From: Gemmatimonadota bacterium
GTDB lineage: Bacteria; Gemmatimonadota; Gemmatimonadetes; Gemmatimonadales; Gemmatimonadaceae
Assembly (NCBI GenBank): GCA_025359135.1
Contig: JANYHJ010000238.1
Span: 1-64,000, forward strand
Reading direction: 5' to 3'
Length of the DNA stretch: 64,000 nucleotides
In this document: in pieces, positions 30,594 through 58,023 of the stretch
How the letters are laid out: the number at the start of each line of letters is the position of its first letter
Numbering within the stretch: position 1 is the stretch's first letter
The notes under the pieces: model-generated
Databases searched by the model: none
Told to the model about the DNA's origin: nothing
The model's input: the letters and a program-made list of their open reading frames with translations, nothing else
Position numbers and translations under genes: made by a program

Positions 30594-30717
30594 TCTACGG
30601 CGCAGCCGTCGGCGTAGCGACCGATGTCATCGTGAGCGCTGACGTTTGCGAGCGACGGTGCATGACACGTGACTGCTGTCGGACGACGGATGACACGCGC
30701 CGATTGTGTGGCGTCGA

Positions 30718-31704: not shown

Positions 31705-32831
31705 GCCAGCAGGGCCGACGAGCGGCCGTACGGCGCAGTCCCGCTCGCTGGAGCCGATGCGGCGGGTGCCGTCCACTCGCGCACCGTGTCGATGAACGCG
31801 CGCGCACTCTCGACCGGCGTCTCCGGCAGGATGCCGTGGCCGAGGTTGGCGATGTAGCCGGTGGAACCGAAGGCATCGAGCATCTTGCGCGTGCGGTGCG
31901 CCACGAACTCCGGCTTCCCGAAGAGCAGCGACGGATCGAGGTTGCCCTGCAGCGCCACGCGATGCCCGGCCAACCGCTTCCGCACGTCCGACGGCTCCTG
32001 CTGCCAGTCGATGCCGAGCACGTCGCAGCCCGTGGCTTCGATGAGATGCTCGAGCGCCCAGCCCGCGCCGGGCGCGAACACCGTCACCGGCACGCCGGCC
32101 GTGCGCGCGATCGCGCACGAACGCGCCAGGTACGGCAGCGCGAACTGCCGGAACTCGGCCGGCGCCAGCGCGCCCGCCCACGAGTCGAAGAGCTGCACCG
32201 CCTGCGCGCCCGCGCGCACCTGCGCCACGAGGAAGTTGCCGACGACGGTCGCGAGCCTCGAGAGCAGCGCGTGCGCCATCTCCGGCGCCTCGACCAGCAT
32301 TCGCTTCGCGACGTGGAAATTCTTCGTTCCCTTGCCCTCGACCATGTACGACGCGAGGGTCCACGGCGCGCCCGCGAAGCCGATCAACGGCACCTGGCCG
32401 TTCAATTCGCGACGCGCGAGCCGCACGCCATCGAGCATGTAGCGCAGGTCGGTTTCGACATCGACCTCGCGCAGTCGCTCCAGGTCCGCCGCCTTGCGGA
32501 TCGGATCCGGGAACTGCGGCCCGATCCCCTCGTCCATGTGCAGCTCCATCCCGAGCGCCTGCGGCACGACGAGGATGTCGCTGAAGATGATCGCCGCGTC
32601 CACGTGCAGCAGCTCCACCGGCTGCAGCGTCACCTCGACGGCGAGTTCCGGCGTGCGGCACATCGTGAGGAAGTCCGACTTGGCACGCACCGCGCGATAC
32701 TGCGGGAGGTAGCGGCCGGCTTGGCGCATCATCCACACCGGCGGCCGTTCGGTGACTTCACCGCGGGCTGCGCGCAGGAAGAGGTCGTTCTTGAGGGCGA
32801 CGGCCGGGGCTGTCGCGAGTCCGTCCGTCAA
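31701..32831 (-). CDS. hemE: Uroporphyrinogen decarboxylase
   Basis: Converts uroporphyrinogen III to coproporphyrinogen III. 376 residues; the family opening PVWMMRQAGRYLPQYRAVR and the active-site region AIIFSDILVVPQALG, plus GFAGAPWTLASYMVEG, are all present. The only sensible start is TTG 32831, which has GGGAG about 8 bases upstream and lies 2 bases after the hemA stop. The C-terminal end is extended by an Ala/Pro-rich tail of about 20 residues. Confidence 0.96.
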   Translation of the reverse strand: MTDGLATAPAVALKNDLFLRAARGEVTERPPVWMMRQAGRYLPQYRAVRAKSDFLTMCRTPELAVEVTLQPVELLHVDAAIIFSDILVVPQALGMELHMDEGIGPQFPDPIRKAADLERLREVDVETDLRYMLDGVRLARRELNGQVPLIGFAGAPWTLASYMVEGKGTKNFHVAKRMLVEAPEMAHALLSRLATVVGNFLVAQVRAGAQAVQLFDSWAGALAPAEFRQFALPYLARSCAIARTAGVPVTVFAPGAGWALEHLIEATGCDVLGIDWQQEPSDVRKRLAGHRVALQGNLDPSLLFGKPEFVAHRTRKMLDAFGSTGYIANLGHGILPETPVESARAFIDTVREWTAPAASAPASGTAPYGRSSALLA

Positions 32832-32833
32832 AC

Positions 32834-34171
32834 TCAGGCTCCCTGCACCCGCGTGGCGCTCTCGCGGGCCACCACCGGCGCGATCGTATGGGACCGTCCG
32901 CTGAGACCCTGCCGCACGCCATGCTCGGCGAACAGCTGGTCCATCGTGAGCATCAGGTCGTCGAGCGTCTCGCCGCGCTGGATCGCATTGCGGAGCGCAG
33001 CCATCGGGCGAGCGAGCAGCTTGGCCACGATGCGGTCGGCCGTGCGCACCGCCACGGCGTCGTCGCCAGCGGCGAACGCCACCTCGCGGCGCGCCACTTC
33101 CACGAGCGCGTCGTGCAGCGGGCGGATGACGGCGCGCGCCGCTGCGGCCGACGACCACTCCATGAAGTTCGCCAGTTCGTCCTCGACGATCGAGCTCGCC
33201 GACGGCACCGCAGCGCGGCGCGCCTCCTCGGCGGCCACGATCGGCGTGTGCAGCTGGTCGAGATCCACCAGCGTGAGCCCCTCAAGAGTGCGCACGGACG
33301 ACTCGATGTTGCGCGGCACGGAGAGGTCGAGCAGCACGAGCGGGTAGCCCGCCGTGCCGCAGTTCTCGCGGCACTCGCGCAGCAGCTCGGCCTTGACCAG
33401 CGGCAGCTCCGCACCCGTCGCCACGATGGCCGCGTCGGCCATCGCCAGTTCGAGGTGCATCGCGTCCCACGGCGCCGCGCGCCCGCCCACGGCGTTCGCC
33501 AACTCGACGGCGCGGCTCATCGTGCGGTTGAGCATCACGACGTCCTGCGCGCCGAACTTCTTGAGCTGACGGATCGCGCGCTCGCCCGTCTTGCCGCAGC
33601 CCACCACGACCACGCGCGCATGCGCGAGCGAGCCGAAGCGGTGCAGCACCATCGCGGCCGCTTCGGCGCCGATCGAGTTGCGGCCGGCGGAGAGCGATGT
33701 CTCGGTGGCCACGCGCTTGCCCGCGCGCAATGCGGTCTCGATCAGGCGGTGGAGCACGGGACCCGCAGTTCCGCGCCCGTTCGCCAACCGGTACGCCGTC
33801 TTGAGCTGGCCCAGAATCTGCCCGTCGCCGAGCACCTGGGATTCGAGGCCGGCGGCCACGCGCAGGATGTGCCGGGCAACATCGATGCCGCTCCGACGCC
33901 TGGCGATCTGCAGCAGCGAGTGTGCCTCGCGCCGGCTCCCCATCCAGCGGCGCGCCAGCGACTGCGTCAGCTGCTCCAGCCCTCCGGTCCGTCCCCTTCC
34001 CGTCCAAGCGTAGAGCTCGGTGCGATTGCAGGTCGAGATCAGCGCCATCTCGCGCATCACCTCATCCCGCGGCGCACCGTACAACGCCTCGAGCCGCTCC
34101 TCCGTGAGGTGGAAACGCTCGCGCGTTGCAACATCAGCGGAATGGAAGTCGACTGCGATCGAAATCAGCAT
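32834..34171 (-). CDS. hemA: Glutamyl-tRNA reductase
   Basis: First enzyme of the C5 tetrapyrrole pathway: reduces Glu-tRNA to glutamate-1-semialdehyde. 445 residues. The catalytic cysteine is Cys48 in ISTCNRTELYAW. The NADPH-binding domain follows (ARVVVVGCGKTGERAIRQLKKFGAQDVVMLNR), then the dimerisation domain. ATG 34171 is preceded by AGGA. A TGTC-N10-GACA motif lies 64-81 bases upstream, and the gene is downstream of bchP on the same strand, so tetrapyrrole supply may be under the photosynthesis regulator. Confidence 0.96.
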   Translation of the reverse strand: MLISIAVDFHSADVATRERFHLTEERLEALYGAPRDEVMREMALISTCNRTELYAWTGRGRTGGLEQLTQSLARRWMGSRREAHSLLQIARRRSGIDVARHILRVAAGLESQVLGDGQILGQLKTAYRLANGRGTAGPVLHRLIETALRAGKRVATETSLSAGRNSIGAEAAAMVLHRFGSLAHARVVVVGCGKTGERAIRQLKKFGAQDVVMLNRTMSRAVELANAVGGRAAPWDAMHLELAMADAAIVATGAELPLVKAELLRECRENCGTAGYPLVLLDLSVPRNIESSVRTLEGLTLVDLDQLHTPIVAAEEARRAAVPSASSIVEDELANFMEWSSAAAARAVIRPLHDALVEVARREVAFAAGDDAVAVRTADRIVAKLLARPMAALRNAIQRGETLDDLMLTMDQLFAEHGVRQGLSGRSHTIAPVVARESATRVQGA

Positions 34172-34234: not shown

Positions 34235-34252
34235 TGTCATGCGGACAGGACA
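34235..34252. promoter_or_regulatory. Putative PpsR/CrtJ operator (TGTC-N10-GACA) upstream of hemA
   Basis: TGTCATGCGGACAGGACA matches the full PpsR/CrtJ consensus TGT-N12-ACA and its extended form TGTC-N10-GACA. It overlaps the bchP stop codon and ends 64 bases before hemA. A ppsR gene is encoded 3.5 kb upstream in the same gene string. An 18-base match with 8 fixed positions is expected about once by chance in 64 kb, so position is what gives it weight. Binding is inferred. Confidence 0.5.
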
Positions 34253-35493
34253 CCCGCTAGGTGTCCAATGTTTTTCAGAAAGATGCGAATGTGGGCGAGC
34301 GGCCGCGCGACAACCAGACGTTTACACATGTAAGCCTCGAACGTCAATACCTGCACGTCGCGGTCCTTGCAGATCGTCACGAATCGCTCGCGCCGGCTGT
34401 CATTCGAGTACCAGAATCGCTGCATGATGTCGAGGATCCAGAAGACCTGACCGTGCTCGCGCATGAACCGGCGACGCGCCATGCGCAGCAGGCGCGGGTC
34501 GCGCTGGCGCTCCGCCGCGATCACCGCCTCCGCCGCCCGGCGTCCACCGGTCATCGCGTAGAAGATTCCCTCGCCGCTCGCCGGCGCCACGACACCCGCC
34601 GCGTCGCCCGCGAGAATCACGTCGCGTCCATTGTCCCAGCGCGAGAGCGGCCTGAGCGGAATCGGCGCTCCCTCGCATCGCACGGTTTCCACGTCGGCCA
34701 GGCCCATCTCCGCGCGCAACCGGGCCACGGCGTCGCGCAGCTTGAACCCCTGCTGCATGCTCCCCGTGCCGATCGACGTCGTCTCGCCGTGCGGAAAGAC
34801 CCACGAGTAGAAATCGGGCGACCAGCGTCCGTCGTAGTAGACATCGGCGCGTGCAGGACCGAAGGCCTCGCTTTCATTGGTCGGCGACTTCACCACCTCG
34901 TGATACGCGAAGACGTGGGAGGCCGCGTTCGCGACTTCCGGCATCGCGTCGCGCGCTACCGACGAGAGCGCACCGTCGGCGCCCGCGATCCACGTGGCCC
35001 GCAGCGCTTCGGTCTCGCCGCTCCGCGAACGTCCGCCCACATAGTGCACCGTCGCACGCCCGTGGGCCTCACGCGTGATCGACTGAAAGATCCCCGTGCG
35101 CCGCTCCGCGCCCGCGGCGCGCGCGCGCTCGCGCAGCCACTCATCGAACACCCCGCGATCGACCATGCCCACGTAGCCCGTGCCGACCGGGATGTCGACG
35201 CGCTCGCCGCGCGGCGACACCATCCGCGCCGTGTCGACGCGCGCCACCATCAGCGAATCGGGCACCGCGAAATCCGCGAGCAGCTGGGGCGGCACGGCCC
35301 CCCCGCACGGCTTGATGCGCCCTGCCTTGTCGAGCAGGCACACGGAGAGGCCCTCGCGCGCGAGCTCGTGCGCGGCGGTGGCGCCGGCTGGACCGCCACC
35401 GACCACCACCACGTCGAAGTCGCGGCGCTCGAGGGCGCCGCTCGTCGCATGCGTCATCGGCTGCTCGACGGCGCCGCTCGTCGCGTGCGTCAT
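34237..35493 (-). CDS. bchP: Geranylgeranyl-bacteriochlorophyll reductase
   Basis: FAD-dependent reductase that converts the geranylgeranyl tail of bacteriochlorophyll to phytyl. 418 residues from ATG 35493. The Rossmann motif VVVVGGGPAGATAAHEL (about 28-44), IKPCGGAVPPQLL and the second FAD motif DVILAGDAAGVVAPASGEGIFYAM are intact. The start forms TGATG with the pucC-like stop. A second in-frame ATG lies at 35457 within a tandem 36-base duplication, giving a repeated MTHATSGA at the N-terminus. Either start gives a full enzyme. Confidence 0.94.
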   Translation of the reverse strand: MTHATSGAVEQPMTHATSGALERRDFDVVVVGGGPAGATAAHELAREGLSVCLLDKAGRIKPCGGAVPPQLLADFAVPDSLMVARVDTARMVSPRGERVDIPVGTGYVGMVDRGVFDEWLRERARAAGAERRTGIFQSITREAHGRATVHYVGGRSRSGETEALRATWIAGADGALSSVARDAMPEVANAASHVFAYHEVVKSPTNESEAFGPARADVYYDGRWSPDFYSWVFPHGETTSIGTGSMQQGFKLRDAVARLRAEMGLADVETVRCEGAPIPLRPLSRWDNGRDVILAGDAAGVVAPASGEGIFYAMTGGRRAAEAVIAAERQRDPRLLRMARRRFMREHGQVFWILDIMQRFWYSNDSRRERFVTICKDRDVQVLTFEAYMCKRLVVARPLAHIRIFLKNIGHLAGVLSA

Positions 35494-35502
35494 CAGCTGA
35501 TC
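35431..35502. repeat. 36-base tandem duplication spanning the bchP start
   Basis: 35431-35466 and 35467-35502 are adjacent copies that match at 32 of 36 positions. Each copy contains an in-frame bchP ATG (35457 and 35493), and the outer copy also carries the stop codon of the pucC-like gene in the TGATG junction. The duplicated unit encodes MTHATSGA followed by four or five variable residues. Confidence 0.85.
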
Positions 35503-36833
35503 GCCGCCAGCATCGCGTCGCCGTCGGCCGTCGCGAGGCGGACCCGTGCCTCGGTGCGCGCCGTGGCCTTGAGCGCGAACACCGCGGCGACCGCAAAGAG
35601 CACCGCCTCCACCGCGAACACGGCCACGTACCCGCCGGTGGACGAACCCAGCATGCTGCGGGCGACGTCGCTGCCGGCCGCGCCGAGGAAATTGCCCGTG
35701 CCCATCGCCACCGCCTGGGCGGCACCGAAGACGCCCATGCGGAGACCGGCCTTGCCGTCGGTCTTGTCGACGGTGAGCGCCATCATCGAGGCGAGCGCGC
35801 CGATCGAGTACATGCCGTTGCCGAAGCCCAGCCCGACAAGGGTCGCCCTCAGCACGAGCGCGCTGCCCGTGAGTGGCGAGAGCGCGAGCAGCACGAAGAA
35901 CGCTGACGACATCACGCATCCCGCGCTCGCCCACTTGCTCGACGTGCCGAACCGTGGCGCCATGGCGGCCGTGGCGAGCATGCCGAAGAGCAGTCCCTGC
36001 TGGTGATTGCCCGACACCGCCGTCGACTGCGCCGGCGTCATGCCGAACACCATGCCGGCGAACGGCTCGAGGATCAGGTCCTGCGCACTGTACGCGAACA
36101 TCGCGAGCCCGATGAACCAGCAGAAGCTGCGGGCGGTGGGATCGGCCCAGACGGCGCGCAACGCCACGCGGAACTCGGTGTCGCGCTTCACGCCCTCCAC
36201 GGGGGCGGCCACCGGCGGCGCGGCGCGCTCGAGCCCGCGCACGGCGAGCACCGCCACGACGAACGCCGCCGTGGCCACCATGGCCGTGACCTGCACCAGG
36301 CGCTCGTACGAGAAGGGCACGAGCAGCCGGCTCACCGACACCGTCGTGACGATGAAGCCCGAGATCATCATGATCCAGACGAGCGCCGCCGCGCGTGCGC
36401 GACGCGCCGGCGCCACTCGTTCGGCGAGCAGCGCGAGCAACGGCGTCCCCGCCGCGCTCACGCCCGCGCCGATGCCGAGGAAGCAGAACGTGGCTGCGAC
36501 GAGTCCCCACAGGCGCGACGTCGCGATCGTCGCCGTGGCCGCCGACGCACCAACCCCCGCGAGCGCGAGCAGCGCCATGCCTCCGATGATCCACGCCTCG
36601 CGCCGTCCCGTCACGTCGGAGCCATGACCCATGCTCGGCCGCAGGCCGAACTGGATCACGTTGTGCGCCGCCACGAGCAGTCCGGGCACGAGCGCGGGCA
36701 ACGCGAGCTCCACCACCATCACGCGATTGACGGTCGACGTCATGAGCACGACCACCGCGCCGATCGAGGCCTGCACCAGGCCGATGCGCACGATGTGCGG
36801 CCAGCGGAGCCCCACCTGCGCTTCCTCAGCCAT
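35493..36833 (-). CDS. PucC-family (BCH2) major facilitator, photosynthetic complex assembly
   Basis: A 446-residue, twelve-helix MFS protein of the PucC/LhaA/BCH2 family, which assists assembly of light-harvesting complexes or pigment delivery. The family opening is clear: HIVRIGLVQASIGAVVVLMTSTVNRVMVVELALPALVPG, followed by a conserved RPSMGHGSD loop. In purple bacteria a homologue (orf428) lies between bchG and bchP, as here. The start ATG 36833 overlaps the bchG stop by 8 bases. The truncated copy at 43895 is a different member. Confidence 0.87.
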   Translation of the reverse strand: MAEEAQVGLRWPHIVRIGLVQASIGAVVVLMTSTVNRVMVVELALPALVPGLLVAAHNVIQFGLRPSMGHGSDVTGRREAWIIGGMALLALAGVGASAATATIATSRLWGLVAATFCFLGIGAGVSAAGTPLLALLAERVAPARRARAAALVWIMMISGFIVTTVSVSRLLVPFSYERLVQVTAMVATAAFVVAVLAVRGLERAAPPVAAPVEGVKRDTEFRVALRAVWADPTARSFCWFIGLAMFAYSAQDLILEPFAGMVFGMTPAQSTAVSGNHQQGLLFGMLATAAMAPRFGTSSKWASAGCVMSSAFFVLLALSPLTGSALVLRATLVGLGFGNGMYSIGALASMMALTVDKTDGKAGLRMGVFGAAQAVAMGTGNFLGAAGSDVARSMLGSSTGGYVAVFAVEAVLFAVAAVFALKATARTEARVRLATADGDAMLAAIS

Positions 36834-37785
36834 GGAGCAGGGGCGAGGCGCGCAGCGCGAGCGCCGCGACGAGCATGCCAAGGACCTCGAGCGGCACGCC
36901 CGCTGCGGAGAGCCAGAGCGCCCGTTCCACCGGCGACGCGATGAAGCGATGCATCATGCGCGCCTGCACGAGGATGAGGGCGAGCAGCACGAGCGCGTGG
37001 CCCCACATGCCCCACGCGAAGAGCAGCCCCATCACGCCGAGTTGGCTCATGAGCATGATCGTGCTCGCGATGCGCGCCGCCTCCACTGCGCCGTGCAGCA
37101 CGGGCAGCGAGTTGACCCCCATCTGTCGGTCACCCTCGATGGCCTTGAAGTCGTTGAGCGTGAGGATGCCGTGCCCCGCGAGGGAGTAGAGGCCGATGCA
37201 CCACCACTGCGCGGCCGTCGGCATCTGCCCCGTGAACACGACGATGCCGGTCAGCCACGCGAGTCCCTCGTAGGCCAGCCCGACCGCGGCATTGCCCACC
37301 CAGCCGTTCTGCTTGAAGCGGAACGGCGGCATGCTGTAGCCCCACGCGAGCGCGAGCGCGAAGCCGGTGGCGATCATCCCGAGTGTGCCGAACACCGACG
37401 ACCACGCGAGCGCGAGCAGCGACCAGACGATCGCGATGTAGAGCCCCCACCGTCCGGGAATTCGTCCCGAGGGAATCGGGCGATTCGGTTCGTTGATCGC
37501 ATCGACGTGCCGATCGAACCAGTCGTTGACCGCTTGACTGCTCGCGCAGACCAGCGGGCCGCAGAGGAAGATGCCGCCCGCGAGCGTCCACCCCTTGCCG
37601 GAGAAGGACGCCCCCGACGACGTCACGCCGCAGAGGAATGCCCACATCGGCGGGAACCAGGTCACCGGCTTGAGCAGTGTCAGCACGGCGCCCGGCGCGG
37701 GCAACCGGCGCAACTCGCGCGTCGGCTCACCGGTCGGACGGATGGCGGCGGAACTCACGACGTCAGGGCTCGACGTCGCCGACAT
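36826..37785 (-). CDS. bchG: Bacteriochlorophyll synthase
   Basis: Attaches geranylgeranyl (or phytyl) diphosphate to bacteriochlorophyllide. A UbiA-type polyprenyltransferase of 319 residues with about eight helices. The first Asp-rich motif is NDWFDRHVDAINEPNRPIPSG (Asp88, Asp91, Asp95), and the second appears in LNDFKAIEGDRQMG. The start at ATG 37785 overlaps the ppsR stop by 23 bases and the end overlaps the pucC-like start by 8, so translation is tightly coupled. Confidence 0.95.
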   Translation of the reverse strand: MSATSSPDVVSSAAIRPTGEPTRELRRLPAPGAVLTLLKPVTWFPPMWAFLCGVTSSGASFSGKGWTLAGGIFLCGPLVCASSQAVNDWFDRHVDAINEPNRPIPSGRIPGRWGLYIAIVWSLLALAWSSVFGTLGMIATGFALALAWGYSMPPFRFKQNGWVGNAAVGLAYEGLAWLTGIVVFTGQMPTAAQWWCIGLYSLAGHGILTLNDFKAIEGDRQMGVNSLPVLHGAVEAARIASTIMLMSQLGVMGLLFAWGMWGHALVLLALILVQARMMHRFIASPVERALWLSAAGVPLEVLGMLVAALALRASPLLHG

Positions 37786-39196
37786 GAGCGTCAGCGCTGT
37801 TGAGGAGCTGGTAGCGACGCAGCTTCACGTAGAGGCTCTGCCGGCTCACGCCAAGCAGCTCCGCGGCGGACGTGCGATTGTCCTTCGTGAGATCGAGCGC
37901 GGCGCCGATGAAGTGTCGTTCCACGAGGTCGATCGTGTCGCGCACCAGCTCGCGTAGCGACACCTGCCCCACGAGGCGCGTCAGGTGCTCGACCGCGCGC
38001 GAGATGTCGCGCACGGCCTCAGGTCCCGCCGCCGAACGACGGCCGAGGTCGCGGATCACCCAGCCCACGCACGGCACCTCACCCTCGTCCGACCACACCG
38101 CCGAAACCTCGACCTCGCTCAACGCGCCATGGTGGCCGCGCGCACTCGTTCGCGCGAGGCGCACCACGCCGTGTTCCTTGAGCGCGGCGAGATACCCGCT
38201 CACATCGGCTCCATCGTGGCCGAGCCAGCGCGCCAACGGCAGTCCCACCGCTTCGGCATCGCGTGACACGTTGGCCAGATCGAGGAATGCCGCGTTGGCC
38301 GTGAGGATCTGGCCGCCGAAATCGGTGACGACGAAGGCATCGGGGGCGTGCTCGAGCAGTTCGCTCAAGGGCGGACGCTCCGCGCCATCCTCGCTCACGA
38401 GGCGCAGCAGCATCACGGTGCCGGTTTCCTGGCGGAAGCAGGTCGCCGATGCGGTGAACGGCATGCCCGTGACCTTCATCTCGGCGCGCTCGGTCTCCGA
38501 ACGGCCGGTCGCGCGCGCTTGCGCGAGCATCGCGGTAAGCTGGCCCACGTCCGCGCTGCGCACGCCGACGGGAAAGGTCTGTCCCACGAGGGCATCGGCG
38601 TCGACTGCGAAGAGCGAGAGCGCCGCGCGATTGGCGTCGACGATGCGATGCGTGTCCGCATCGAGCACGAGGATCGCCTCGCTCGCCATCTGGAAGAGGT
38701 GGCGATAGCGCGTCTCGGCATGTCGCAGCCGCCAATGGTCGCGCTCCATCGTCTCCTGCGCCGACACGAGCCGCTGCTGCAATGCGGAGAGGGCGCGGAG
38801 ATCGCGCCCGACCACCACCAGCCGTCGGCCGCGCACGCGGATCGCCGAATACTGCACGGGGAAATCGGTCCGACCGCTCTGCGGGTGGTTGAGCTGCCGC
38901 CGGCGCGCGCTGCCGCGCTGCGTGCCTTCCGCGATCAGCGCCTCCGCCTTGCCCCGCGTCTCCACCGTGACGACCTGCGCGAGCGTGCGGCCGACCCAGC
39001 CCTGCGTGTCGAGCGTCTCGCCCTCGACCGGATTGATGCGGACGTCCTCGATCACGCCGCACGCATCGAGCGTGAGCGCGAAATCACCTCCGACCGTCAG
39101 CAGGTCCGCGGCGACGACGGCATCCATCTCGTCGAACGCGGTGCCGGGTGGCAACGGCGGCCGGGAGGCCATGACGGACGCGGTCCTCTGGCTCAC
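37763..39196 (-). CDS. ppsR: PpsR/CrtJ-family redox/light repressor of photosynthesis genes
   Basis: A transcription factor of 477 residues that represses photosynthesis genes under high oxygen in purple bacteria. PAS domains appear around residues 30-140, 160-270 and 290-395 (for example HLFQMASEAILVLDADTHRIVDANRAALSLF and LLEHAPDAFVVTDFGGQILTANAAFLDLA). A Fis-type helix-turn-helix is at the C-terminus (DNRTSAAELLGVSRQSLYVKLRRYQ). The helix preceding the recognition region reads RHFIGAALDL; the position near Phe429 is where the described proteins have a redox cysteine, so thiol sensing may be absent or use other cysteines. The GTG start overlaps aerR by 4 bases. Confidence 0.92.
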   Translation of the reverse strand: MSQRTASVMASRPPLPPGTAFDEMDAVVAADLLTVGGDFALTLDACGVIEDVRINPVEGETLDTQGWVGRTLAQVVTVETRGKAEALIAEGTQRGSARRRQLNHPQSGRTDFPVQYSAIRVRGRRLVVVGRDLRALSALQQRLVSAQETMERDHWRLRHAETRYRHLFQMASEAILVLDADTHRIVDANRAALSLFAVDADALVGQTFPVGVRSADVGQLTAMLAQARATGRSETERAEMKVTGMPFTASATCFRQETGTVMLLRLVSEDGAERPPLSELLEHAPDAFVVTDFGGQILTANAAFLDLANVSRDAEAVGLPLARWLGHDGADVSGYLAALKEHGVVRLARTSARGHHGALSEVEVSAVWSDEGEVPCVGWVIRDLGRRSAAGPEAVRDISRAVEHLTRLVGQVSLRELVRDTIDLVERHFIGAALDLTKDNRTSAAELLGVSRQSLYVKLRRYQLLNSADAHVGDVEP

Positions 39197-40035
39197 GCGG
39201 AGGGAGAGTCAGTCGCGTCCCGGAGGAGGCCCCGGGCGAGCGCCGGCGCGGCACGTGCATCGAGCGCGATGCCATCGGCGCCGATCACGCGCCACGCATC
39301 GGGATGCTGTTCGAAGCATGGTCCTCCGACGATGACCTTGACGCGTTGATTGCGCGACACCGAGCGCAGTTCAGTGATCAATGCGGCCATCTCGCCCAGT
39401 CGGCGTTCCGACCCGACCGAGAAGCCCACGACGTCGAGGTTGTCACGGCGCACCTCGGCCAGCGCATGTCGCGGCGACACGGGAGGCCCGAGCACCACTT
39501 CCCATTCGTCGCGCGCAAAGAATTCGGCCGCGATGAGCAATCCGAGCAGGTGCTGTTCACCGTCGGCGCATGAGAGCAGCACCTTGCCGACCAGCGGCCG
39601 GTCGGCGCCCGTGCCGCGGAGCCCCCGCGCGCCGGTGAGGTCGTGGAGCGCCCGCTGGATCCGTCCCAGCGACACGGTCACGGCGACGAAGTCGCACGCG
39701 TCGACTTCCCAGAGCTCACCCATGTGGCGCGCCGTGGGCGCGAGCAGGTCGAGCATCAGCGTCTCGGAGAGCACTCCGCCGGCGAGCAGGGCGCGAACGC
39801 GCGCGTTCGCCGCCCCGTCATCGTCGCCCAGCAGGTCCCTGGTGAACCCCTCCAGGTCGGAGGCCACGATTGGGGTGCCGGCCACCATCCCGGCAGCCGT
39901 GGCGTTCGGCGGCGACGTACGGTGGGCGAGCAGGAGGCGCGGCAGGAGCACCTCTTCAATAGTACGGGAGAGCCCACGGTTGGCGGACGCGCCAGCGGCG
40001 CGAACCTCGTCGGACACCCTCCAACTCGTCGTCAT
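39193..40035 (-). CDS. aerR: AerR/PpaA-like B12-binding antirepressor
   Basis: A 280-residue cobalamin-binding regulator that in purple bacteria modulates PpsR/CrtJ. The N-terminal helical bundle contains WEVDACDFVAVTVSLGRIQRALHDL (the W-x-x-D-x-x-x-x-x-V-T pattern of AerR). The B12 domain begins VLLSCADGEQHLLGLLIAAEFF, with the ligand histidine in E-x-H-x-x-G. ATG 40035 has GGGGAG about 7 bases upstream; TTG 40062 would be weaker. It is first in the string aerR-ppsR-bchG-pucC-bchP-hemAEF. Confidence 0.87.
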   Translation of the reverse strand: MTTSWRVSDEVRAAGASANRGLSRTIEEVLLPRLLLAHRTSPPNATAAGMVAGTPIVASDLEGFTRDLLGDDDGAANARVRALLAGGVLSETLMLDLLAPTARHMGELWEVDACDFVAVTVSLGRIQRALHDLTGARGLRGTGADRPLVGKVLLSCADGEQHLLGLLIAAEFFARDEWEVVLGPPVSPRHALAEVRRDNLDVVGFSVGSERRLGEMAALITELRSVSRNQRVKVIVGGPCFEQHPDAWRVIGADGIALDARAAPALARGLLRDATDSPSA

Positions 40036-40104
40036 GCAGCCGCTCCCCGGGTCCGGAGTCAAGCGTTCACGCCGTCGGACACGCCTCGAACTGGGGTCGA
40101 GCGA

Positions 40105-40125: not shown

Positions 40126-40154
40126 ATAATCCGCGCGGACTCGGGTGTTGTCAA
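40126..40154 (-). promoter_or_regulatory. Sigma70-type promoter for aerR-ppsR-bch-hem string
   Basis: On the minus strand a consensus -35 TTGACA (40154-40149) is followed, after 17 bases, by GATTAT (40131-40126), which matches 4 of 6 positions of TATAAT. The leader to aerR would be about 84 bases. The -35 hexamer belongs to an inverted TGTCAA...TTGACA pair (the other copy at 40178-40183), which could bind a regulator. The whole 40036-40190 gap separates aerR from the divergent bchH relic. Confidence 0.5.
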
Positions 40155-40190
40155 CGGCAGGCTTACGTCACGTCTGCTTGACACCCCCCG

Positions 40191-40796
40191 CAATGGCACC
40201 ACCGGCGCGCCCACAAGGCGAGCCCCGAGCTCATGCAGCGCCTGCTCGGCACCGCCTCGCTCACCTCCCAGAACAACGATTCGGTGGATCTGGGCGCCAC
40301 GGACATCGACCAGTACGTCGAAAGCCTGGGCGGCATGCAGCGGGTGGCCGAACGTGCGCGCGGCGAGGCGATTCCGGTGTACCTTGGGGATCATACCACC
40401 GGGTCCGGGAAGGTCCGCACGCTCACGGAACAGGTGGCGCTCGAAACGCGGACCCGCATGCTCAACCCCAAGTGGTACGAAGCCCAGCTGCAGACGGGCT
40501 ACGAGGGGGTGCGCAACCTCGCCGGGCACGTGACCACCACGTTCGGGTGGTCGGCCACGGCGGGCGAGCGGTCGGTGCCGCAGTGGGTCTACACCGACAT
40601 CTCGAAGACCTTCGTGCTCGACCCGGAGATGCGCGCGCGTATCTCCCGCATGAATCCCGCGGCGGCCTCGGGGATGGCCCAGCGGTTGCTCGAGGCGACG
40701 GACCGCGGATTCTGGCGACCCGATGCGGACACCCTCGCGCAATTGCGCGAGGCCGCAGCCGAACTGGAAGACCGACTCGAAGGCGTGACCGCATGA
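40191..40796 (+). pseudogene. bchH: Truncated magnesium chelatase large subunit, C-terminal sixth only
   Basis: The sequence from about 40206 aligns by eye with the extreme C-terminus of BchH: RRAHKASPELMQRLLG, VELG-like SVDLGATDIDQYVESLGG, IPVYLGDHTTGSGKVRTL, ALETRTRMLNPKWYEAQL, GWSATAG and EDRLEGVTA. Full BchH has about 1,200 residues; only about 200 remain. An in-frame stop at 40179-40181 closes the frame directly upstream, and homology fades near 40195-40205, so the 5' five-sixths are gone. ATG 40233 could start a 187-residue fragment but lacks a ribosome site. It cannot be a functional chelatase subunit. Confidence 0.85.
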
Positions 40797-42492
<1,696 letters not shown>

Positions 42493-42496
<4 letters not shown>

Positions 42497-42831
42497 CCGA
42501 ACCATCCGTGGTGGTGGTGGCCGCTTTGGGCGCGGTTCTCGTGCTGGGGGCGTGGCTCGTCTGGCGCCGCCAGGTGGAGGTGTCCTGCGAGATCGACCTC
42601 GAGTCGACCCACGACCACTTCCACGCCCACGTCTCGCTCGACGGCGTCGAGGTGCACGAGGGCGACGAGGTGGTGGTGCATGGTGCGCCGACGCAGATCG
42701 CGTTCGGCGAGGTGCGCACCGTGAAGGCGCGCGCGACGGTGCACCAGGCCTCGTGGCCGCGCCGGGTGCTGCAGCGCGTCCTCGGCACCTCCGAGATCAC
42801 GGGACTCTACGAAGTCGGCTTCGAGGGCTAG
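42493..42831 (+). CDS. Small membrane-anchored protein between bchM and acsF
   Basis: A 112-residue protein of unknown function. One transmembrane helix at residues 5-25 (SVVVVAALGAVLVLGAWLVW) precedes a beta-rich soluble domain with a His-rich start (STHDHFHAHVSLDGVEVHEGDEVVVHG) and ending SEITGLYEVGFEG. GTG 42493 overlaps the bchM stop and the gene ends 2 bases before acsF, so it is translationally embedded between two Mg-porphyrin enzymes. It may help the cyclase or hold pigment intermediates at the membrane; this is a guess from position. Confidence 0.75.
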
Positions 42832-42833
42832 AC

Positions 42834-43898
42834 ATGTACGATACGGCCACCCGGGCGCCCGTCAACGAACAGACGAAGGCGGCCCAGCAGGACGCGGCGC
42901 TCAATCCGCGCTTCTACACCACCGACTTCGCCGAGATGGACCGGCTCGACGTGAGCCGCTTGCGCGCGCAGTGGGACGAACTCGTGGCGGAGTTCCGCCG
43001 CGATCCGAACAAGGATCACTTCAAGCGGAACGCGGACTTCGACGCCGATTTCGCCGGCTGGGATCCGAAGCTGCGCGAGCAGTTCATCGATTTCCTCGTC
43101 AGTTCGGTGACGGCCGAGTTCTCGGGCTGCATTCTCTACGCCGAGATCAAGAAGCGCGTCAAGAACCCGGACGTGCGCGAACTCTTCGGCCTAATGAGCC
43201 GCGACGAGGGCCGGCACGCCGGCTTCATGAACCACACGCTCAACGACTTCAACGTGGCGGTGGACCTCTCGTTTCTCACCAAGGCCAAGAAGTACACGTA
43301 CTTCCAGCCCAAGTTCATCTACTACGCCACGTACCTGAGCGAGAAGATCGGCTACGCGCGCTACATCACGATCTACCGCAACTTCGAGAAGCAGCCGGAC
43401 AAGCGCTTCCACCCGATCTTCAAGTGGTTCGAGAACTGGTGCAACGACGAGTTCCGGCACGGGGAGGCGTTCGCCGTCCTGATGCGCGCGAACCCGCAGT
43501 TCCTCGAGGGCAAGAACCGCCTCTGGATCCGCTTCTTCCTGCTTGCGGTCTTCGCCACCATGTACGTGCGCGATCACCTGCGCCGGCCATTCTTCGCGCA
43601 GATGGGCATCGACGTCGATGACTTCGATCGTCGCGTCATCAAGCTGACCAACGAGATCTCGCGCCAGGTCTTCCCGGTCACGATGGACACCGACAACCCG
43701 CGCTTCTGGGAGCTGCTGCAGGAGATGTACGAGAACACCATCGCGATCCACGCGGCGGAGAAAGCCGGTGGCTTGGGCGGCACGCTCAAGGCCAAGGCGC
43801 TGATGCTCGCCAACGGCTTCGCGTTCGTGAAGCTGTTCTTCATGCGCCCGGTGGAAATGGCGCTGCCCGCGGACGTCCGGCTCCAGCCGGTCTGGTGA
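42834..43898 (+). CDS. acsF: Aerobic Mg-protoporphyrin IX monomethyl ester oxidative cyclase
   Basis: The oxygen-dependent diiron enzyme that forms the fifth ring of bacteriochlorophyll. 354 residues. Diiron ligands are visible as E95 and nearby (TAEFSGCILYAE), D-E-G-R-H at 124-128 and D-E-F-R-H at 205-209. The anaerobic alternative, bchE, is not in the window. It follows the small membrane gene by 2 bases and its stop overlaps the truncated lhaA-like gene by 4 (GTGA). Confidence 0.96.
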   Translation: MYDTATRAPVNEQTKAAQQDAALNPRFYTTDFAEMDRLDVSRLRAQWDELVAEFRRDPNKDHFKRNADFDADFAGWDPKLREQFIDFLVSSVTAEFSGCILYAEIKKRVKNPDVRELFGLMSRDEGRHAGFMNHTLNDFNVAVDLSFLTKAKKYTYFQPKFIYYATYLSEKIGYARYITIYRNFEKQPDKRFHPIFKWFENWCNDEFRHGEAFAVLMRANPQFLEGKNRLWIRFFLLAVFATMYVRDHLRRPFFAQMGIDVDDFDRRVIKLTNEISRQVFPVTMDTDNPRFWELLQEMYENTIAIHAAEKAGGLGGTLKAKALMLANGFAFVKLFFMRPVEMALPADVRLQPVW

Positions 43899-44302
43899 CG
43901 CCGACCCCCATGGGAACGCTCGCCGAGCAACCGCCGACCGGTCCGGCCGCGGTGGCCGAGACGGCGCCGCGCGCGTCGTCGACTGCGGCGCGCGCCTGGA
44001 TGAAGGTCGGCAACCGCTGGATGCCGTTCGCCGACATCGCCACCTCGGGCGTGCCGCTCTCGCGCTTCCTGCGGTTGTCGATGTTCCAGCTCACCGTCGG
44101 CATGGTGCAGACGCTCTTCTTCGGGACGCTCAACCGCGTCATGATCGTCGAGCTGCACATCTCCGCCACACTCGTCTCGGTGATGATCTTCATGGCCTTG
44201 CTGCCCAGCACGCGCGCCGCGGCCATGGGACTTCCACCGGAAGCGCTGGGCGTCGGCCATGGGATGATGGACGGTCGCCCCGCACCGGCGCCGGTTCCGT
44301 AG
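43895..44302 (+). pseudogene. Truncated LhaA/PucC-family gene, N-terminal part only
   Basis: Residues about 43-98 match the start of LhaA/PucC proteins: WMPFADIATSGVPLSRFLRLS, FQLTVGM and FFGTLNRVMIVELHISATLVSVMI. A complete protein has about 450 residues and twelve helices. After residue 98 (near base 44186) homology stops and an unrelated 37-residue Pro/Ala tail runs to the stop at 44302. The fragment keeps at most two helices. It is translationally coupled to acsF. It could survive as a small membrane peptide, but it cannot be a working transporter or assembly factor. Confidence 0.75.
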
Positions 44303-44352: not shown

Positions 44353-45846
44353 GTGACGGACGTCCCGAATATTCGAACCGCCGGCGTGCTGCTGCACCCG
44401 ACGTCGCTTCCGGGATCGCACGGCATCGGAGACCTGGGCGCCAACGCCCTGCGCTTTCTCGACGTGATGGCCGATGCAGGCCTCACGATCTGGCAGATGC
44501 TCCCGCTCGGTCCCACCGGCTACGGCGATTCACCGTATCAGGCCTTCTCGGCCTTTGCGGGGAATCCGCTGCTCGTGAGCGTGCCCGGCGTCGGCGGCGG
44601 CGCGTTTCCCGTCGACCGCGTCGATTTCGAGCACGTCATTCCGCACAAGCGGGCGCTGCTCGAGACGGCGTTCAAGGCGTGGACGCCCGATGCCGCATTC
44701 GCGGCGTTCGTGCATGCGCAGCGTGCGTGGTTGCCCGACTTCGCCCTGTTCATGGCGATCAAGCAGGCACACGGCGGCGTGTCATGGACGGAGTGGCCGG
44801 CCGAGATCGCGCGACGTGAGCCGGCCGCCATGGAAGCGTGGCGCACCAAGCTCACGGGCGCCATCGATCGCGTGCAGTTCGAGCAGTGGATCTTCGCGCA
44901 GCAATTCGCACGCCTGCGCGCGGAGGCCAAGGCACGCGGCATCCAGCTCATGGGCGACCTGCCGATCTACGTCGCCCACGACTCGGCCGACGTCTGGGCC
45001 AACCCCGGGCTCTTCCTGCTCGACCGCAACGGTCGGCCGCGCGTGCAGGCTGGCGTGCCCCCCGACTACTTCAGCGCCACTGGACAGCTCTGGGGCAATC
45101 CGATCTACCACTGGGACGAGATCGCGAAGACGGGCTACGCCTGGTGGATCGCGCGCATGCGCGCCGCGCTCGCGCAGTTCGACTCCGTGCGCCTCGATCA
45201 CTTCCGCGGCTTCGAGGCGTTTTGGGAAGTGCCGGGCGATGCGACGACCGCCGCGAGTGGTCGTTGGGTGCCGGGACCGGGACGTCCGCTGTTCGACGCG
45301 CTCACCAAGGCGCTCGGACCCCTGCCGATCCTGGCCGAGGACCTCGGGTTGATCACGCCGGGGGTGAAGGCGTTGCGCGAGGGACTCGGGCTTCCGGGCA
45401 TGGCGATCCTGCAGTTCGCCTTCGGCAACGATGACCAGGCCGGCGACTTCACGCCGCACAACCTGACGCGCGACCGCGTGCTGTACACCGGCACCCACGA
45501 CAACGACACGACGGTCGGCTGGTGGCAGTCCACGGGCGCGGGCGACTCGACGCGCACGAGCGAGAGCGTGGCCAAGGAGAAGGCGTACGCGATGCGCTAT
45601 CTCGACACCGATGGACGCGAGATGCACTGGACGATGATCCGCGCCGCGATGGCGACGGTGTCGAGCACGGTGCTCGTGCCGATGCAGGATATCCTCGGCC
45701 TCGGCAGCGAGGCCCGCATGAACCTGCCGGGACGACCCGGCGGCAACTGGCAGTTCCGCTTCCGGTGGGATCAGGTGACGCCGGACATCACCCGGCGGTT
45801 GCGCAGCCTGGTGGATACCTACGCACGTCGTCCCGACGCGACATGA
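44353..45846 (+). CDS. malQ: 4-alpha-glucanotransferase (amylomaltase)
   Basis: A GH77 disproportionating enzyme of 497 residues that moves glucan segments in maltodextrin and glycogen metabolism. GVLLHPTSLPGSHGIGDLG, GDLPIYVAHDSADVWANP, RLDHFRGFEAFWEVP with the nucleophile region, ILAEDLG and TGTHDNDTTVGWW are all intact. It interrupts a photosynthesis gene neighbourhood where puh genes would be expected. Its stop overlaps the start of an MFS transporter fragment by 4 bases. Confidence 0.96.
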   Translation: MTDVPNIRTAGVLLHPTSLPGSHGIGDLGANALRFLDVMADAGLTIWQMLPLGPTGYGDSPYQAFSAFAGNPLLVSVPGVGGGAFPVDRVDFEHVIPHKRALLETAFKAWTPDAAFAAFVHAQRAWLPDFALFMAIKQAHGGVSWTEWPAEIARREPAAMEAWRTKLTGAIDRVQFEQWIFAQQFARLRAEAKARGIQLMGDLPIYVAHDSADVWANPGLFLLDRNGRPRVQAGVPPDYFSATGQLWGNPIYHWDEIAKTGYAWWIARMRAALAQFDSVRLDHFRGFEAFWEVPGDATTAASGRWVPGPGRPLFDALTKALGPLPILAEDLGLITPGVKALREGLGLPGMAILQFAFGNDDQAGDFTPHNLTRDRVLYTGTHDNDTTVGWWQSTGAGDSTRTSESVAKEKAYAMRYLDTDGREMHWTMIRAAMATVSSTVLVPMQDILGLGSEARMNLPGRPGGNWQFRFRWDQVTPDITRRLRSLVDTYARRPDAT

Positions 45847-45998
45847 CTGAAAAGCCCGTCCGGTTCCTGACCGTCTGGAACATGAATTTCGGTTTCCTGG
45901 GGATCCAGTTCGGCTGGGCCCTCCAGATGGCCAACATGAGTCTTCGGCGTGAAGAATCCCGGCACGCAGTTCCTGCCGCCGCAGCTCGCGCATCTTGA
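45843..45998 (+). pseudogene. MFS sugar transporter, first ~33 codons only
   Basis: RFLTVWNMNFGFLGIQFGWALQMANMS is the opening of SLC45-like maltose/sucrose MFS carriers, which often follow malQ. After ANMS (near base 45939) the frame changes to unrelated residues and stops at 45998, because the DNA beyond belongs to a puhE-like gene. The gene retains the first half of the first helix. The ATG overlaps the malQ stop (ATGA), as for a once-complete operon partner. Confidence 0.75.
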
Positions 45999-46233
45999 GC
46001 GCTTCTTCGGTCCGTTGCAGAATTCGCCCTTCCTGCCGTTCTCGTTGACGGTGCTGACGGTGGCGACGTTCGCGATGTTCGTGATGGTGGCACGCGACCG
46101 CGCGCCGCAGCGACGTCGCGGATGGTCGCTGGTGTCCACGCTCATGGCGCTCGCAGTGGTGGAGCACCTCTTTCTCTCGTCCCGCTGGAACGCCCCGTTC
46201 TGGCAGTTCTTCCTCGAGTTGCGCGGGCACTGA
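45940..46233 (+). pseudogene. PuhE-like (DUF3623) gene, C-terminal part only
   Basis: From GTC 45940 the frame reads VFGVKNPGTQFLPPQLAHLERFFGPLQ, then FLPFSLTVLTVATFAMFV, then LMALAVVEHLFLSSRWNAPFWQFFL. This resembles by eye the C-terminus of photosynthetic complex assembly protein PuhE (DUF3623), including the L-P-x-H-L, F-P-x-S-V-T and ALAVLEH patterns. A stop codon at 45937-45939 lies directly upstream, and the junction with the MFS fragment falls within a few bases of it. GTG 45949 could start a 94-residue membrane peptide. The normal protein has about 250 residues. Confidence 0.65.
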
Positions 46234-46264: not shown

Positions 46265-46777
46265 ATGCTGACACGTCCTGGCGCTGATGAGTACGCCGAG
46301 TGGTATGGGAAATACGTCGCCATGGTACCGGACGGCGACTTCGCCACGGCGATGGCGAGCGGACACGACGCGCTCGTCGTGCGCCTGCGCGCAGCAGCGG
46401 CCAGGTCGCGCTTCCGCTACGCCGAGGGGAAGTGGTCGATCGCCGAATCGGTACAGCACCTGGTGGACGCCGAACGCGTGTTCACGTATCGCCTGCTCTC
46501 GTTCCTCCGCGGTGACACGCAGGCACTGCCGCCATTCGACGAAACCGCGTGGGCGCCGGCCGCGCTCGCGGACGCCCGCGAGTACGGCGCACTGGTGGAC
46601 GAATTCGACGCCGTGCGGCGCGCGACCATCGCACTCGTCCGCAACGCGCCGGCATCGGCGTGGGCCAACCGGGGCACGATGAGCGGCAACACGGCGAGCG
46701 CGCGCGCCGTTGCGTACATCATTGCCGGACACGAGCGGCACCACGACGCGCTCTTCCGCGAGCGGTACGGCGTGTAG
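46265..46777 (+). CDS. DinB-superfamily protein
   Basis: A 170-residue four-helix DinB-like protein. WSIAESVQHLVDAERVFTYRLLSFLRGD carries the first metal-ligand histidine and AYIIAGHERHHDALFRERYG the C-terminal H-x-x-x-H pair. Such proteins include bacillithiol and mycothiol S-transferases (BstA, MST). A bacillithiol-linked role is attractive because bshB1 is in this window, but the pairing is not direct. The preceding GGAGG (46254-46258) supports ATG 46265. Confidence 0.85.
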   Translation: MLTRPGADEYAEWYGKYVAMVPDGDFATAMASGHDALVVRLRAAAARSRFRYAEGKWSIAESVQHLVDAERVFTYRLLSFLRGDTQALPPFDETAWAPAALADAREYGALVDEFDAVRRATIALVRNAPASAWANRGTMSGNTASARAVAYIIAGHERHHDALFRERYGV

Positions 46778-46821
46778 GGAGTGGTGGCGAGCGGTCCGGA
46801 ACGGGGCCATCTTGCAGGGGC

Positions 46822-47613
46822 ATGCGACCGATCCTCCTTCCGTCGTTGACACGTTGGCGCGCGATGCCACGGGTGCGGAGTGCCGTGCGGAGCGCCGGGA
46901 TCGTTGCGGCGCTCGGTATCGGGGCGACGGGCTGCCTCCTGCCAGGCTTGCCGGGCCGGTCCACGGCGATCTCGCTCGCCGAGCGCGCCGAGCAGGGCGA
47001 CATCTCGGCCCTCGCGAAGATGAGCGTGCTGCGCGACTCCCGGTTCAGTTCGGGGCAGCGGGAGATTCGTGTCTGGTTCGCGATGGCCTCGGGGGCGCCC
47101 GACCTTCTGCTGCGCGTGGCGAGTGCGCGCGACGCGAAGGGCCCGTCCGGCGAGTTGTGGGCGTGGTGGCCGCTGCCGTCGGGTGACGGCGATCGTTCGC
47201 TCGCCGGCACCGAGGGCGCGCTCAACCGTCGCACGCGCGACTCGGTGCAGGCGACGGTGAACTGCGCGTCGCTCTTCCGCGCGGGCGGCAACGAAGCGTG
47301 CCGCCTGCGGCTCAAGCAGGAGCCGGACTGGAAGGCGGTGCTCGCGCAGCTCGACTCGCTGCGCGCCTTCACGCTGCCCGACCAGGACTCGCTCCCGCGC
47401 GCCGATTCGCTGGTGCGCGTGGCGGAGCAGCGGCGGATGTCGGAGAACATGATGGTGACCGTCGAGGTGCTCGACGGCGCGGTGTACCGGACCTACACGT
47501 ACACCAACCCTCGGTCGCTCCCGCGCTCGGAGGCGCAGCGCGCGGCGGCGATCGTGGACATGATCGCGGACCTGGCGCGCCGGGCGCGCCGTCCCGACGC
47601 CCGCACGCCGTAG
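46822..47613 (+). CDS. Lipoprotein of unknown function
   Basis: A 263-residue lipoprotein; signal peptide with lipobox GATGC at about residues 34-38. The mature region is helical and polar, with a Cys pair (NCASLF... EACRL) and no recognised domain. AGGGGC just before ATG 46822 supports this start over ATG 46864, which would give a more ordinary 24-residue signal. It is followed by two short genes on the same strand with almost no gaps. Confidence 0.65.
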   Translation: MRPILLPSLTRWRAMPRVRSAVRSAGIVAALGIGATGCLLPGLPGRSTAISLAERAEQGDISALAKMSVLRDSRFSSGQREIRVWFAMASGAPDLLLRVASARDAKGPSGELWAWWPLPSGDGDRSLAGTEGALNRRTRDSVQATVNCASLFRAGGNEACRLRLKQEPDWKAVLAQLDSLRAFTLPDQDSLPRADSLVRVAEQRRMSENMMVTVEVLDGAVYRTYTYTNPRSLPRSEAQRAAAIVDMIADLARRARRPDARTP

Positions 47614-47614
47614 C

Positions 47615-47911
47615 GTGTCGTCGACCGAGGCGCGGCTTGGTGCCGTGTTCGGCACGGCGTTGGCCGAAGTGGCGCGGGTACGCCAGGCGTGCTGGCACCG
47701 GCAAAGCGCTGACGATGCGCGCGCCGAATTCGAGCGCATTGCGCAGGAGTTGGCGTCGCTCGTCGCGAGTGCCGACACGGGCGTGGACATGGAGCGGCTC
47801 GGTTCGCTCGTGCGCGCGGTTGCGGCATGGCAACCTGAACAGGGACTGCCGCTGATCGGTGCGCTGGGCGCGGTGGTTCGCGCGGCGCGCTCGACGACGG
47901 CGGACGCGTGA
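47615..47911 (+). CDS. Small helical protein, unknown function
   Basis: A 98-residue protein predicted to be almost entirely helical (FGTALAEVARVRQACWHRQSADDARAEFERIAQELASLVASA), with no signal or membrane segment. No family is recognised. GTG 47615 starts 1 base after the preceding lipoprotein stop, and the 3' end overlaps the next membrane gene by 4 bases, suggesting a three-gene operon. Confidence 0.55.
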   Translation: MSSTEARLGAVFGTALAEVARVRQACWHRQSADDARAEFERIAQELASLVASADTGVDMERLGSLVRAVAAWQPEQGLPLIGALGAVVRAARSTTADA

Positions 47912-48669
47912 ACGCCAGGCGGGGCGATCCGTGGATGGCGGTGGCGGTCGCAGCCTGGGTTGGCACCGGACTCTGGATCGATCACGCGGCGTCGCTCGAC
48001 GCACAACGCGTGATCGGCGCGTTCACGTGGGCGCTGCTGGCGCTCGCGCTCGTGCGCGAAACGCGCGCCGTGCGCGCGCAAGTGATGGTGGCGCTCGTGA
48101 TCGCGACCGCCGGCGAATACGCGCTCAGTCCCGGGCTCGGCCTCTACGACTACCGGTTTGTCGGGGTGCCGAGCTTCGTGCCACCCGGCCACGGTCTCGT
48201 CTACCTCGCGGCCCTCAACCTCGCGCGTTCCACGCTGGCCGGCCGCTGGGGACCGCTCGTCCGCTGGTCGACCGTCGTGGCCGGAGGATGCTGGGCCCTC
48301 TGGGGCGTGACGATGGCGGCGCGCAGCGACTGGTTCGGGTTCGTGCTGTACGCGGCGTGGGCTGCCTTCGCGCTGCGCGGTGGCGCGCCGATGATCGCCG
48401 TGGGTTGCTGGATCCTCACCACGTGGCTCGAGCTCGTGGGCACGGGACTCGGCAACTGGGCCTGGGCCCCGGCAACGGCGCTGCCGTTCCTGACGATGGG
48501 CAATCCGCCCACGGGGATCGCGGGCGGGTACTGCGTGCTGGACGTGCTCGCGCTGCGCATCGGTCAGGCGCTCGTGGCGCCGCGCGACGATCAGGGGGCG
48601 GCGGGCGGTGTGGAGGGCGGTGAGGGTGGTGCGCGCTTCGCCTCTGCTTCGGCGACGCCGCGCAGCTGA
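47908..48669 (+). CDS. Polytopic membrane protein, unknown function
   Basis: A 253-residue protein with about six to seven hydrophobic helices (for example WMAVAVAAWVGTGLWIDHA, VMVALVIATAGEYALSPGLG, CWALWGVTMAARSDWFGFVLY). Conserved-looking patches are LYDYRFVGVPSFVPPGHGLVYL and MGNPPTGIAGGYCVLDVLALR. The function is unknown. The hydrophilic Gly/Ala tail overlaps the 3' end of the convergent transporter gene by 79 bases, so the true stop could be shared with antisense RNA control. Confidence 0.65.
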   Translation: MNARRGDPWMAVAVAAWVGTGLWIDHAASLDAQRVIGAFTWALLALALVRETRAVRAQVMVALVIATAGEYALSPGLGLYDYRFVGVPSFVPPGHGLVYLAALNLARSTLAGRWGPLVRWSTVVAGGCWALWGVTMAARSDWFGFVLYAAWAAFALRGGAPMIAVGCWILTTWLELVGTGLGNWAWAPATALPFLTMGNPPTGIAGGYCVLDVLALRIGQALVAPRDDQGAAGGVEGGEGGARFASASATPRS

Positions 48670-50752: not shown

Positions 50753-50761
50753 GTCCGGTGA

Positions 50762-51724: not shown

Positions 51725-51761
51725 GGAGGAAAGGTAGGGGTTCAAGCGGTGAAGGACCACG

Positions 51762-53009: not shown

Positions 53010-53011
53010 CG

Positions 53012-54253: not shown

Positions 54254-54442
54254 CCGGGAAAATTGGCCGGGTGCGGGCCGCGCTCACAGGGGCGGCGGCA
54301 CACCGGGCCGTGCGCGCGGCCGCCGCAGAATCCCCACGCCGGTGACGCGCGTCCTATCGGCCGCGCGCCGGGTCGCCTAGGATACGATGCGTGCGCCCCC
54401 GCTGCGGGCGTGCTCCCACCCGATCGTCTGCGGAGGTATCCG

Positions 54443-55408: not shown

Positions 55409-55439
55409 CGCGCGAGTTCGCTGCACCAATGCGCCACGT

Positions 55440-55469
55440 GGGCGCCGGGACCTCACGGTTCCGGCGCCC
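55440..55469. terminator. Bidirectional hairpin between CsgG-like gene and permease pair 3
   Basis: A 9-base perfect stem (GGGCGCCGG / CCGGCGCCC) with a 12-base loop lies between the converging 3' ends. Its right arm touches the stop codon of the minus-strand permease gene (55469-55471). It has no T-tract on either side. It would separate the three-pair array from what follows. Confidence 0.6.
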
Positions 55470-56731: not shown

Positions 56732-56733
56732 GC

Positions 56734-57978: not shown

Positions 57979-57995
57979 GCTCGAAAGCTGCCGTG

Positions 57996-58021
57996 CGCGC
58001 CCCCCGGCTCAAGGGGGCGCG
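57996..58021 (-). terminator. Hairpin inside the permease operon (attenuator or processing site)
   Basis: A 9-base perfect stem (CGCGCCCCC / GGGGGCGCG) with an 8-base loop lies 2 bases after the stop of the type 2 pair 2 permease and 18 bases before the next permease start. It has no T-tract. It is in the largest gap between permease genes in pairs 1-3, where all the others are 2-6 bases, so it may lower or set downstream expression. Confidence 0.55.
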
Positions 58022-58023
58022 AA

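Follow-up and report, generated by a model that had tools for sequence, protein, structure and literature searches.

Phototrophy is patchily distributed in Gemmatimonadota, a pattern that could stem either from repeated gain or from repeated loss. A locus in a genome of the family Gemmatimonadaceae, from a relative of Gemmatimonas, bears on this question. The locus lies in a 64-kb stretch of DNA, called the window here. In the window, a short piece of bchH stands beside intact genes of bacteriochlorophyll synthesis. Is this arrangement the remnant of a complete photosynthesis gene cluster, and if so, what was removed from it and when?

Genomes and criteria

The genome under study is a draft of 4.13 Mb in 243 contigs, estimated to be 94% complete and 0.74% contaminated. 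The comparison set consisted of 179 Gemmatimonadaceae genomes. G093 and G094 are congeners of the studied genome, while G055 belongs to another genus, which it shares with G044 and G045. A BchH was regarded as full-length when it had about 1,200-1,300 residues and matched the whole TIGR02025/PF02514 profile above the 829-bit cut-off. The dN/dS ratio was used against the congener G094 only, and phototrophs outside the genus were left out because of their divergence.

Surviving genes and flanks

In relatives with intact clusters, the left part of the cluster has the order bshB1-hemF-hemE-hemA-bchP-pucC-bchG-ppsR-aerR. The right part has the order bchF-N-B-H-L-M-orf112-acsF-lhaA-puhA and continues to pufC, pufM, bchX, bchY/Z, a bchD-like gene, and puhE. 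In the window, the left part is retained on the minus strand. The gene for a BshB1-type deacetylase (29868..30626), assigned by TIGR04001 above its cut-off and by synteny, forms the left flank, and bshB1 adjoins the cluster in the full-cluster relatives and in both congeners. It is followed by the intact haem pathway genes hemF, hemE, and hemA at the left end of the cluster (30721..34171; NF003727, TIGR01464, and TIGR01035, all above cut-off). Next come intact bchP (34240..35430; TIGR02023, 474 bits), an intact gene for a pucC/bch2-like transporter (35496..36881; PF03209, 269 bits), and intact bchG (36829..37785; TIGR01476, 293 bits). The regulator gene ppsR has an open frame (37766..39196; TIGR02040, 409 bits). 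An aerR-like regulator gene (39196..40062) is recognised by 36-46% identity to, and the same position as, its counterparts in relatives.

Downstream of the bchH fragment, on the plus strand, are bchL (40848..41747; TIGR01281, 441 bits) and bchM (41744..42496; TIGR02021, 245 bits). Both are complete and above the curated cut-offs, in agreement with the preliminary description, which had called them intact. Outside Gemmatimonadota, Prochlorococcus and Synechococcus supply many of the closest DPOR L proteins (about 80-87% identity), a likeness that is in line with lateral transfer of the DPOR genes. Between bchM and acsF lies a conserved ORF of 112 codons (42493..42831), which is 54-71% identical to its counterparts in relatives, is found in all compared Gemmatimonadaceae clusters, and has no NCBIfam match. 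Intact acsF follows (42831..43898; TIGR02029, 473 bits). The position of acsF between bchM and lhaA is a published mark of this type of Gemmatimonadaceae cluster (PMC7844134), and it is found in the studied genome.

The right flank (46660..63999) comprises o46660, o47908, a permease gene, and a tandem MacB/FtsX array, and is common to the congener G093. In G044 and G045, too, the MacB/FtsX array lies at the border of the cluster. Within the window the array (53012-63999) has some six paralogous permease genes of the MacB/FtsX type, and it forms the right border of the locus in several genomes. Both outer flanks and the gene order thus match the intact clusters of other Gemmatimonadaceae, and because both flanks match, about 7 kb and about 25 kb can be identified as missing.

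In the tree of the flanks, the studied genome groups with G094 (support 100), and the genus groups with the phototroph G109 (92). In the cluster tree, the studied genome stands next to G109 with weak support (53).

The BchH fragment and the first junction

The C-terminal fragment of bchH (40182..40796, plus strand) corresponds to profile positions 1077/1078-1271 of 1271. Its frame follows a TGA at 40179-40181 and stays open from 40182 until the stop codon at 40796. The claim of the preliminary description that bchH is reduced to its last ~200 codons holds, as TIGR02025 (BchH, 1271 positions) covers only the final 195 positions. The match reaches 234 bits (E about 1e-69), against the 829-bit cut-off for a full-length protein. 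The fragment is 64-72% identical to the C-termini of BchH in relatives. A complete bchH elsewhere in the genome had been named as a thing to look for, and searches of the whole assembly with PF02514 and TIGR02025 found no further piece of BchH. A family of proteins made of this domain only was also considered and ruled out: apart from the studied genome and a join in G052, the partial BchH matches examined in the 179 family genomes are contig ends, including the short pieces in G069 and G141. The fragment is probably non-functional, since the Mg-chelatase lacks most of its H subunit and the search for an I subunit found none above cut-off.

Upstream of the fragment, an alignment with nine relatives reveals a retained aerR-bchF operator block (40147..40185, plus strand; TGTCAA...TACGTCA...CTTGACA). 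The aerR-bchF region of the nine relatives has the common block TGTCAA...(T/G)ACGT(C/A)A...CTTGACA. In the window, the operator is kept up to a -35-like TTGACA at 40178-40183, and bchH codons begin within ~30 bp, by about 40215. This places the junction, J1, at ~40186-40215. As read from the sequence, no -10 region is present at the expected place downstream of TTGACA. The PpsR pattern TGTN12ACA was also considered as the operator site and rejected; it is absent here and in most relatives, and the common block is TGTCAA...TTGACA.

Relative to G044 and G109, ~6.9 kb are missing at J1, comprising bchF, bchN, bchB, and 85% of bchH. The preliminary description had stated that the aerR promoter region directly precedes the fragment and that bchF, bchN, and bchB are missing. 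Both points are borne out by the conserved operator block and by the absence of the three genes from the locus, with no copies found elsewhere in the assembly. Its proposal that a deletion joined the aerR promoter region to the interior of bchH gains support from the intact clusters, which have the same gene order.

The second and third junctions

Further features, absent from the preliminary description, are a truncation of lhaA at about 44190, a malQ-MFS' piece (44353-45940), and a C-terminal remnant of puhE. The lhaA gene is truncated (43895..44190, plus strand): ~100 of 480 codons are left in an alignment with ten relatives, PF03209 matches at positions 1-36 only, and the gene ends at junction J2. 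The gene malQ, encoding 4-alpha-glucanotransferase, follows (44353..45846, plus strand; NF011080 above cut-off). It is not a cluster gene and is single-copy in the studied genome. Between the lhaA break and malQ is a stretch of 160 bp (44190-44352), which has no convincing match, beyond noise, in the clusters of relatives or upstream of malQ in G094. Next to malQ are the first codons of an MFS transporter gene, MFS' (45840..45940, plus strand), where the alignment with G094:C407 stops at 45940, at junction J3. The malQ-MFS' piece has 76.5% nucleotide identity to G094, in which malQ and the MFS gene adjoin. Past J3, a C-terminal fragment of puhE (DUF3623) is found (45940..46233, plus strand, with puhE sequence from 45943; PF12291 positions 157-236 of 256, E 1.2e-14), and homologues of this fragment sit at the right end of the G044 and G045 clusters. 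The malQ-MFS' piece stands where about 25 kb of cluster would be expected, as the interval from lhaA to puhE in G044 is ~25 kb. All three sharp junctions are packed within 6 kb.

The cluster would thus have undergone at least two large loss events. The first, a deletion of ~6.9 kb, would have joined the aerR-bchF operator to bchH codon ~1077. The second would have removed ~25 kb from the interior of lhaA to the interior of puhE, including puhABC, pufBALMC, bchCXYZ, crt, bchD, and others, and would have left the native malQ-MFS' piece in place of the removed segment.

Genes not found in the genome

Of the missing genes, none of the families searched, namely bchH, bchN/B/Y/Z, bchF, bchX, bchI, and pufL/M, was found elsewhere in the genome. 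There is no PF00124 match for the reaction-centre genes pufL/pufM and no PF00148 match for the DPOR/COR genes bchN, bchB, bchY, and bchZ. For bchF, PF07284 has no match in the genome, and this absence is weaker since the profile was silent in the controls too. These searches also cover bchN, bchB, and bchF outside the locus, which the preliminary description had listed as a check. No BchI subunit of Mg-chelatase is found above cut-off (best TIGR02030 match 33.6 bits vs 467). A second hit at BchX level, which almost every other family genome with a BchL has, is also lacking. Judging from this gene content, the organism would make no bacteriochlorophyll and would not be phototrophic.

State of the surviving genes

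The surviving bch genes and acsF show no decay. Their distances to the intact clusters, scaled to the distances of those clusters from one another, are ordinary (bchL 0.98, bchM 1.04, acsF 0.87, and the bchH fragment 1.18). Sites that are otherwise invariant carry few private substitutions: 2/182 in bchL, 0/71 in bchM, 2/164 in acsF, and 1/86 in the bchH fragment. The dN/dS of bchP against G094 is 0.20, and that of the housekeeping neighbours is 0.15-0.28. The exception is ppsR, whose relative distance is raised (1.41 vs a reference range of 0.80-1.22 in ten intact clusters) and which carries private substitutions at 17/135 otherwise invariant sites. Since bchL, bchM, acsF, and the bchH fragment survive without decay, either the deletions are recent or the assembly is wrong.

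Remnants in related genomes

The congeners and one species of another genus appear to show this locus at further stages of loss. In G093, bshB1-pucC-o46660 lie on a 198-kb contig, and pucC is the only cluster gene left at the locus; bchH, bchL, and acsF were not found in this genome. The hem genes usual at the locus are absent from there (G093:C10:66341-69336). In G094, hemF-hemE-hemA and most of bchP are at a contig end, the contig breaking inside bchP. Searches of G094 did not find bchH, bchL, acsF, or pucC, a result that is ambiguous because the genome is 85% complete. In G055 (G055:C2:108001-188000), hemF-E-A, bchP, pucC, bchG, ppsR, and a frameshifted aerR adjoin the MacB array, and neither BchH nor BchL was found in the genome. 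The G055 locus is a second, independent cluster remnant. Compared with the studied genome, G093 and G055 have the same locus and flanks; left-hand cluster genes are retained in them and the right-hand part is gone.

Among the 179 family genomes, a strong PucC match without BchL occurs only in G093, G055, G141, and G150 (partial). This distribution makes a pucC on its own the mark of a former cluster. The cluster contig of G141 ends inside bchH. In G150, which is 74% complete, puhA and the PucC C-terminus are on a 7.5-kb contig (G150:C325), and the genome has no BchL above cut-off and no BchH match. Either a further partial cluster or incompleteness of the bin may explain this. A different arrangement is seen in G052:C596 (1-5200), where the N-terminal codons 1-699 of bchH run in frame into a bchD-like C-terminus, with puhE behind it. 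The same bin has the remainder of bchH on G052:C274, which overlaps C596 by 120 bp with 97.5% identity. Either a genuine deletion variant or a chimeric contig may account for the join. As it occurs despite the remaining bchH in the bin, such joins can arise from strain mixtures or misassembly.

Loss, artefact, or retention

We regard the locus as the remnant of a complete Gemmatimonadaceae cluster, left by a real and probably recent secondary loss of phototrophy, with a probability of roughly 0.7. About three quarters of the cluster are gone via sharp cuts inside genes. An artefact of assembly or binning would require that the complete cluster exists, that the contig was built along k-mers that are rare and either chimeric or strain-variant, and that the other 32 kb stayed unbinned. 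The draft state of the assembly, in 243 contigs, makes this conceivable, as missing pieces could lie on unbinned contigs, and bchL, bchM, acsF, and the bchH fragment would look equally undecayed if misassembly concealed an intact cluster. The crowding of the three sharp junctions, the contig break inside bchP in G094, and the comparable bchH::bchD join in G052, whose missing half is in the same bin, point the same way. However, the window is without any N, which means that gap scaffolding did not create the joins, and both flanks are correct for the locus. Moreover, two separate segments must both be missing from a 94%-complete bin, and several independent families are absent rather than displaced. 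A real loss is also made plausible by G093 and G055, in which long contigs show losses at this locus. We therefore consider an artefact unlikely. Rather improbable, too, is a variant of secondary loss in which the deletions are real but confined to part of a population where full-cluster cells coexist, so that loss is not yet fixed. The truncated and continuing bchH versions in G052, 2.5% apart over 120 bp, provide a parallel, and the absence of decay fits a very recent deletion, but the bin yielded no other version of any of the missing genes.

The retained half could also be kept by selection for a non-photosynthetic role, such as haem/tetrapyrrole regulation via PpsR/AerR or isoprenoid reduction via BchP, with the truncated BchH as a functional domain protein. 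The intactness of the surviving genes, the low dN/dS of bchP, and the independent retention of bchP-pucC-bchG-ppsR in G055 would suit such a role. It is nevertheless very unlikely: a stand-alone BchH this short occurs in no other genome, as the other partial matches examined are contig ends, the G052 join apart; ppsR is accelerated here and aerR is frameshifted in G055; and the G093 locus retains pucC alone. Hardly credible is the gain of a partial cluster by horizontal transfer into a lineage in which it was never complete. The Gemmatimonadota cluster itself was originally acquired from Proteobacteria (PMC8547001, PMC7844134), but the truncated genes keep their native order and lie between the flanks that complete clusters have. 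The cluster tree, with its weak support, also appears compatible with the flank tree, and the cluster genes appear to branch with the Gemmatimonadaceae neighbours of the host.

Implications for phototrophy in Gemmatimonadota

With secondary loss as the preferred reading, remnants of the cluster that sit at the ancestral locus and are broken off within genes provide direct evidence for the loss side of the question. They also indicate an order, in which bchFNBH and puh/puf go first and others linger. We lean slightly towards a scheme in which phototrophy was lost at least two times in Gemmatimonadaceae, stepwise from the bchF/puf side. Three stages would be fossilised at one locus, in the studied genome, in G055, and then in G093, and the hem-bchP-pucC-bchG-ppsR side would be the last to go. 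The undecayed bchL, bchM, and acsF would date the loss in the studied genome as very recent, so strains still capable of photosynthesis may exist among its close relatives. In practice, bchL, bchM, acsF, or bchG alone is unfit for calling a Gemmatimonadota genome phototrophic.

Comparison with known clusters and known losses

The clusters of phototrophic Gemmatimonadota have been described as complete, or as missing genes through genome incompleteness (PMC7844134, PMC8547001, PMC9426454, PMC12817894). Loss was raised only as a possibility in PMC7844134, and we found no description of cluster remnants or cluster loss in Gemmatimonadota in the open-access literature. The retained parts of the locus are in the same order as in the complete cluster of Gemmatimonas phototrophica AP64 and G. 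groenlandica TET16 (PMC7844134, PMC8547001), with the hem genes, bchP-bch2-bchG, ppsR, aerR, bchH-L-M, acsF, and lhaA in common. In contrast to AP64 and TET16, the studied genome lacks bchFNB, most of bchH, puhABC, pufBALMC, bchCXYZ, and most of puhE, and has malQ-MFS' there instead.

Cluster loss is a known kind of event in Proteobacteria, and the loss proposed here would be a further case. In Rhodobacteraceae, loss versus transfer of the cluster is debated (PMC6052148). The absence of the cluster from Citromicrobium JLT1363 (Alphaproteobacteria) has been interpreted as secondary loss (PMC3338782). The likeness to our locus lies in the conserved flanks and the phototrophic close relatives. 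In JLT1363, one hypothetical gene replaces the whole cluster (PMC3338782), whereas the studied genome, from a different phylum, keeps about ten intact and three truncated cluster genes.
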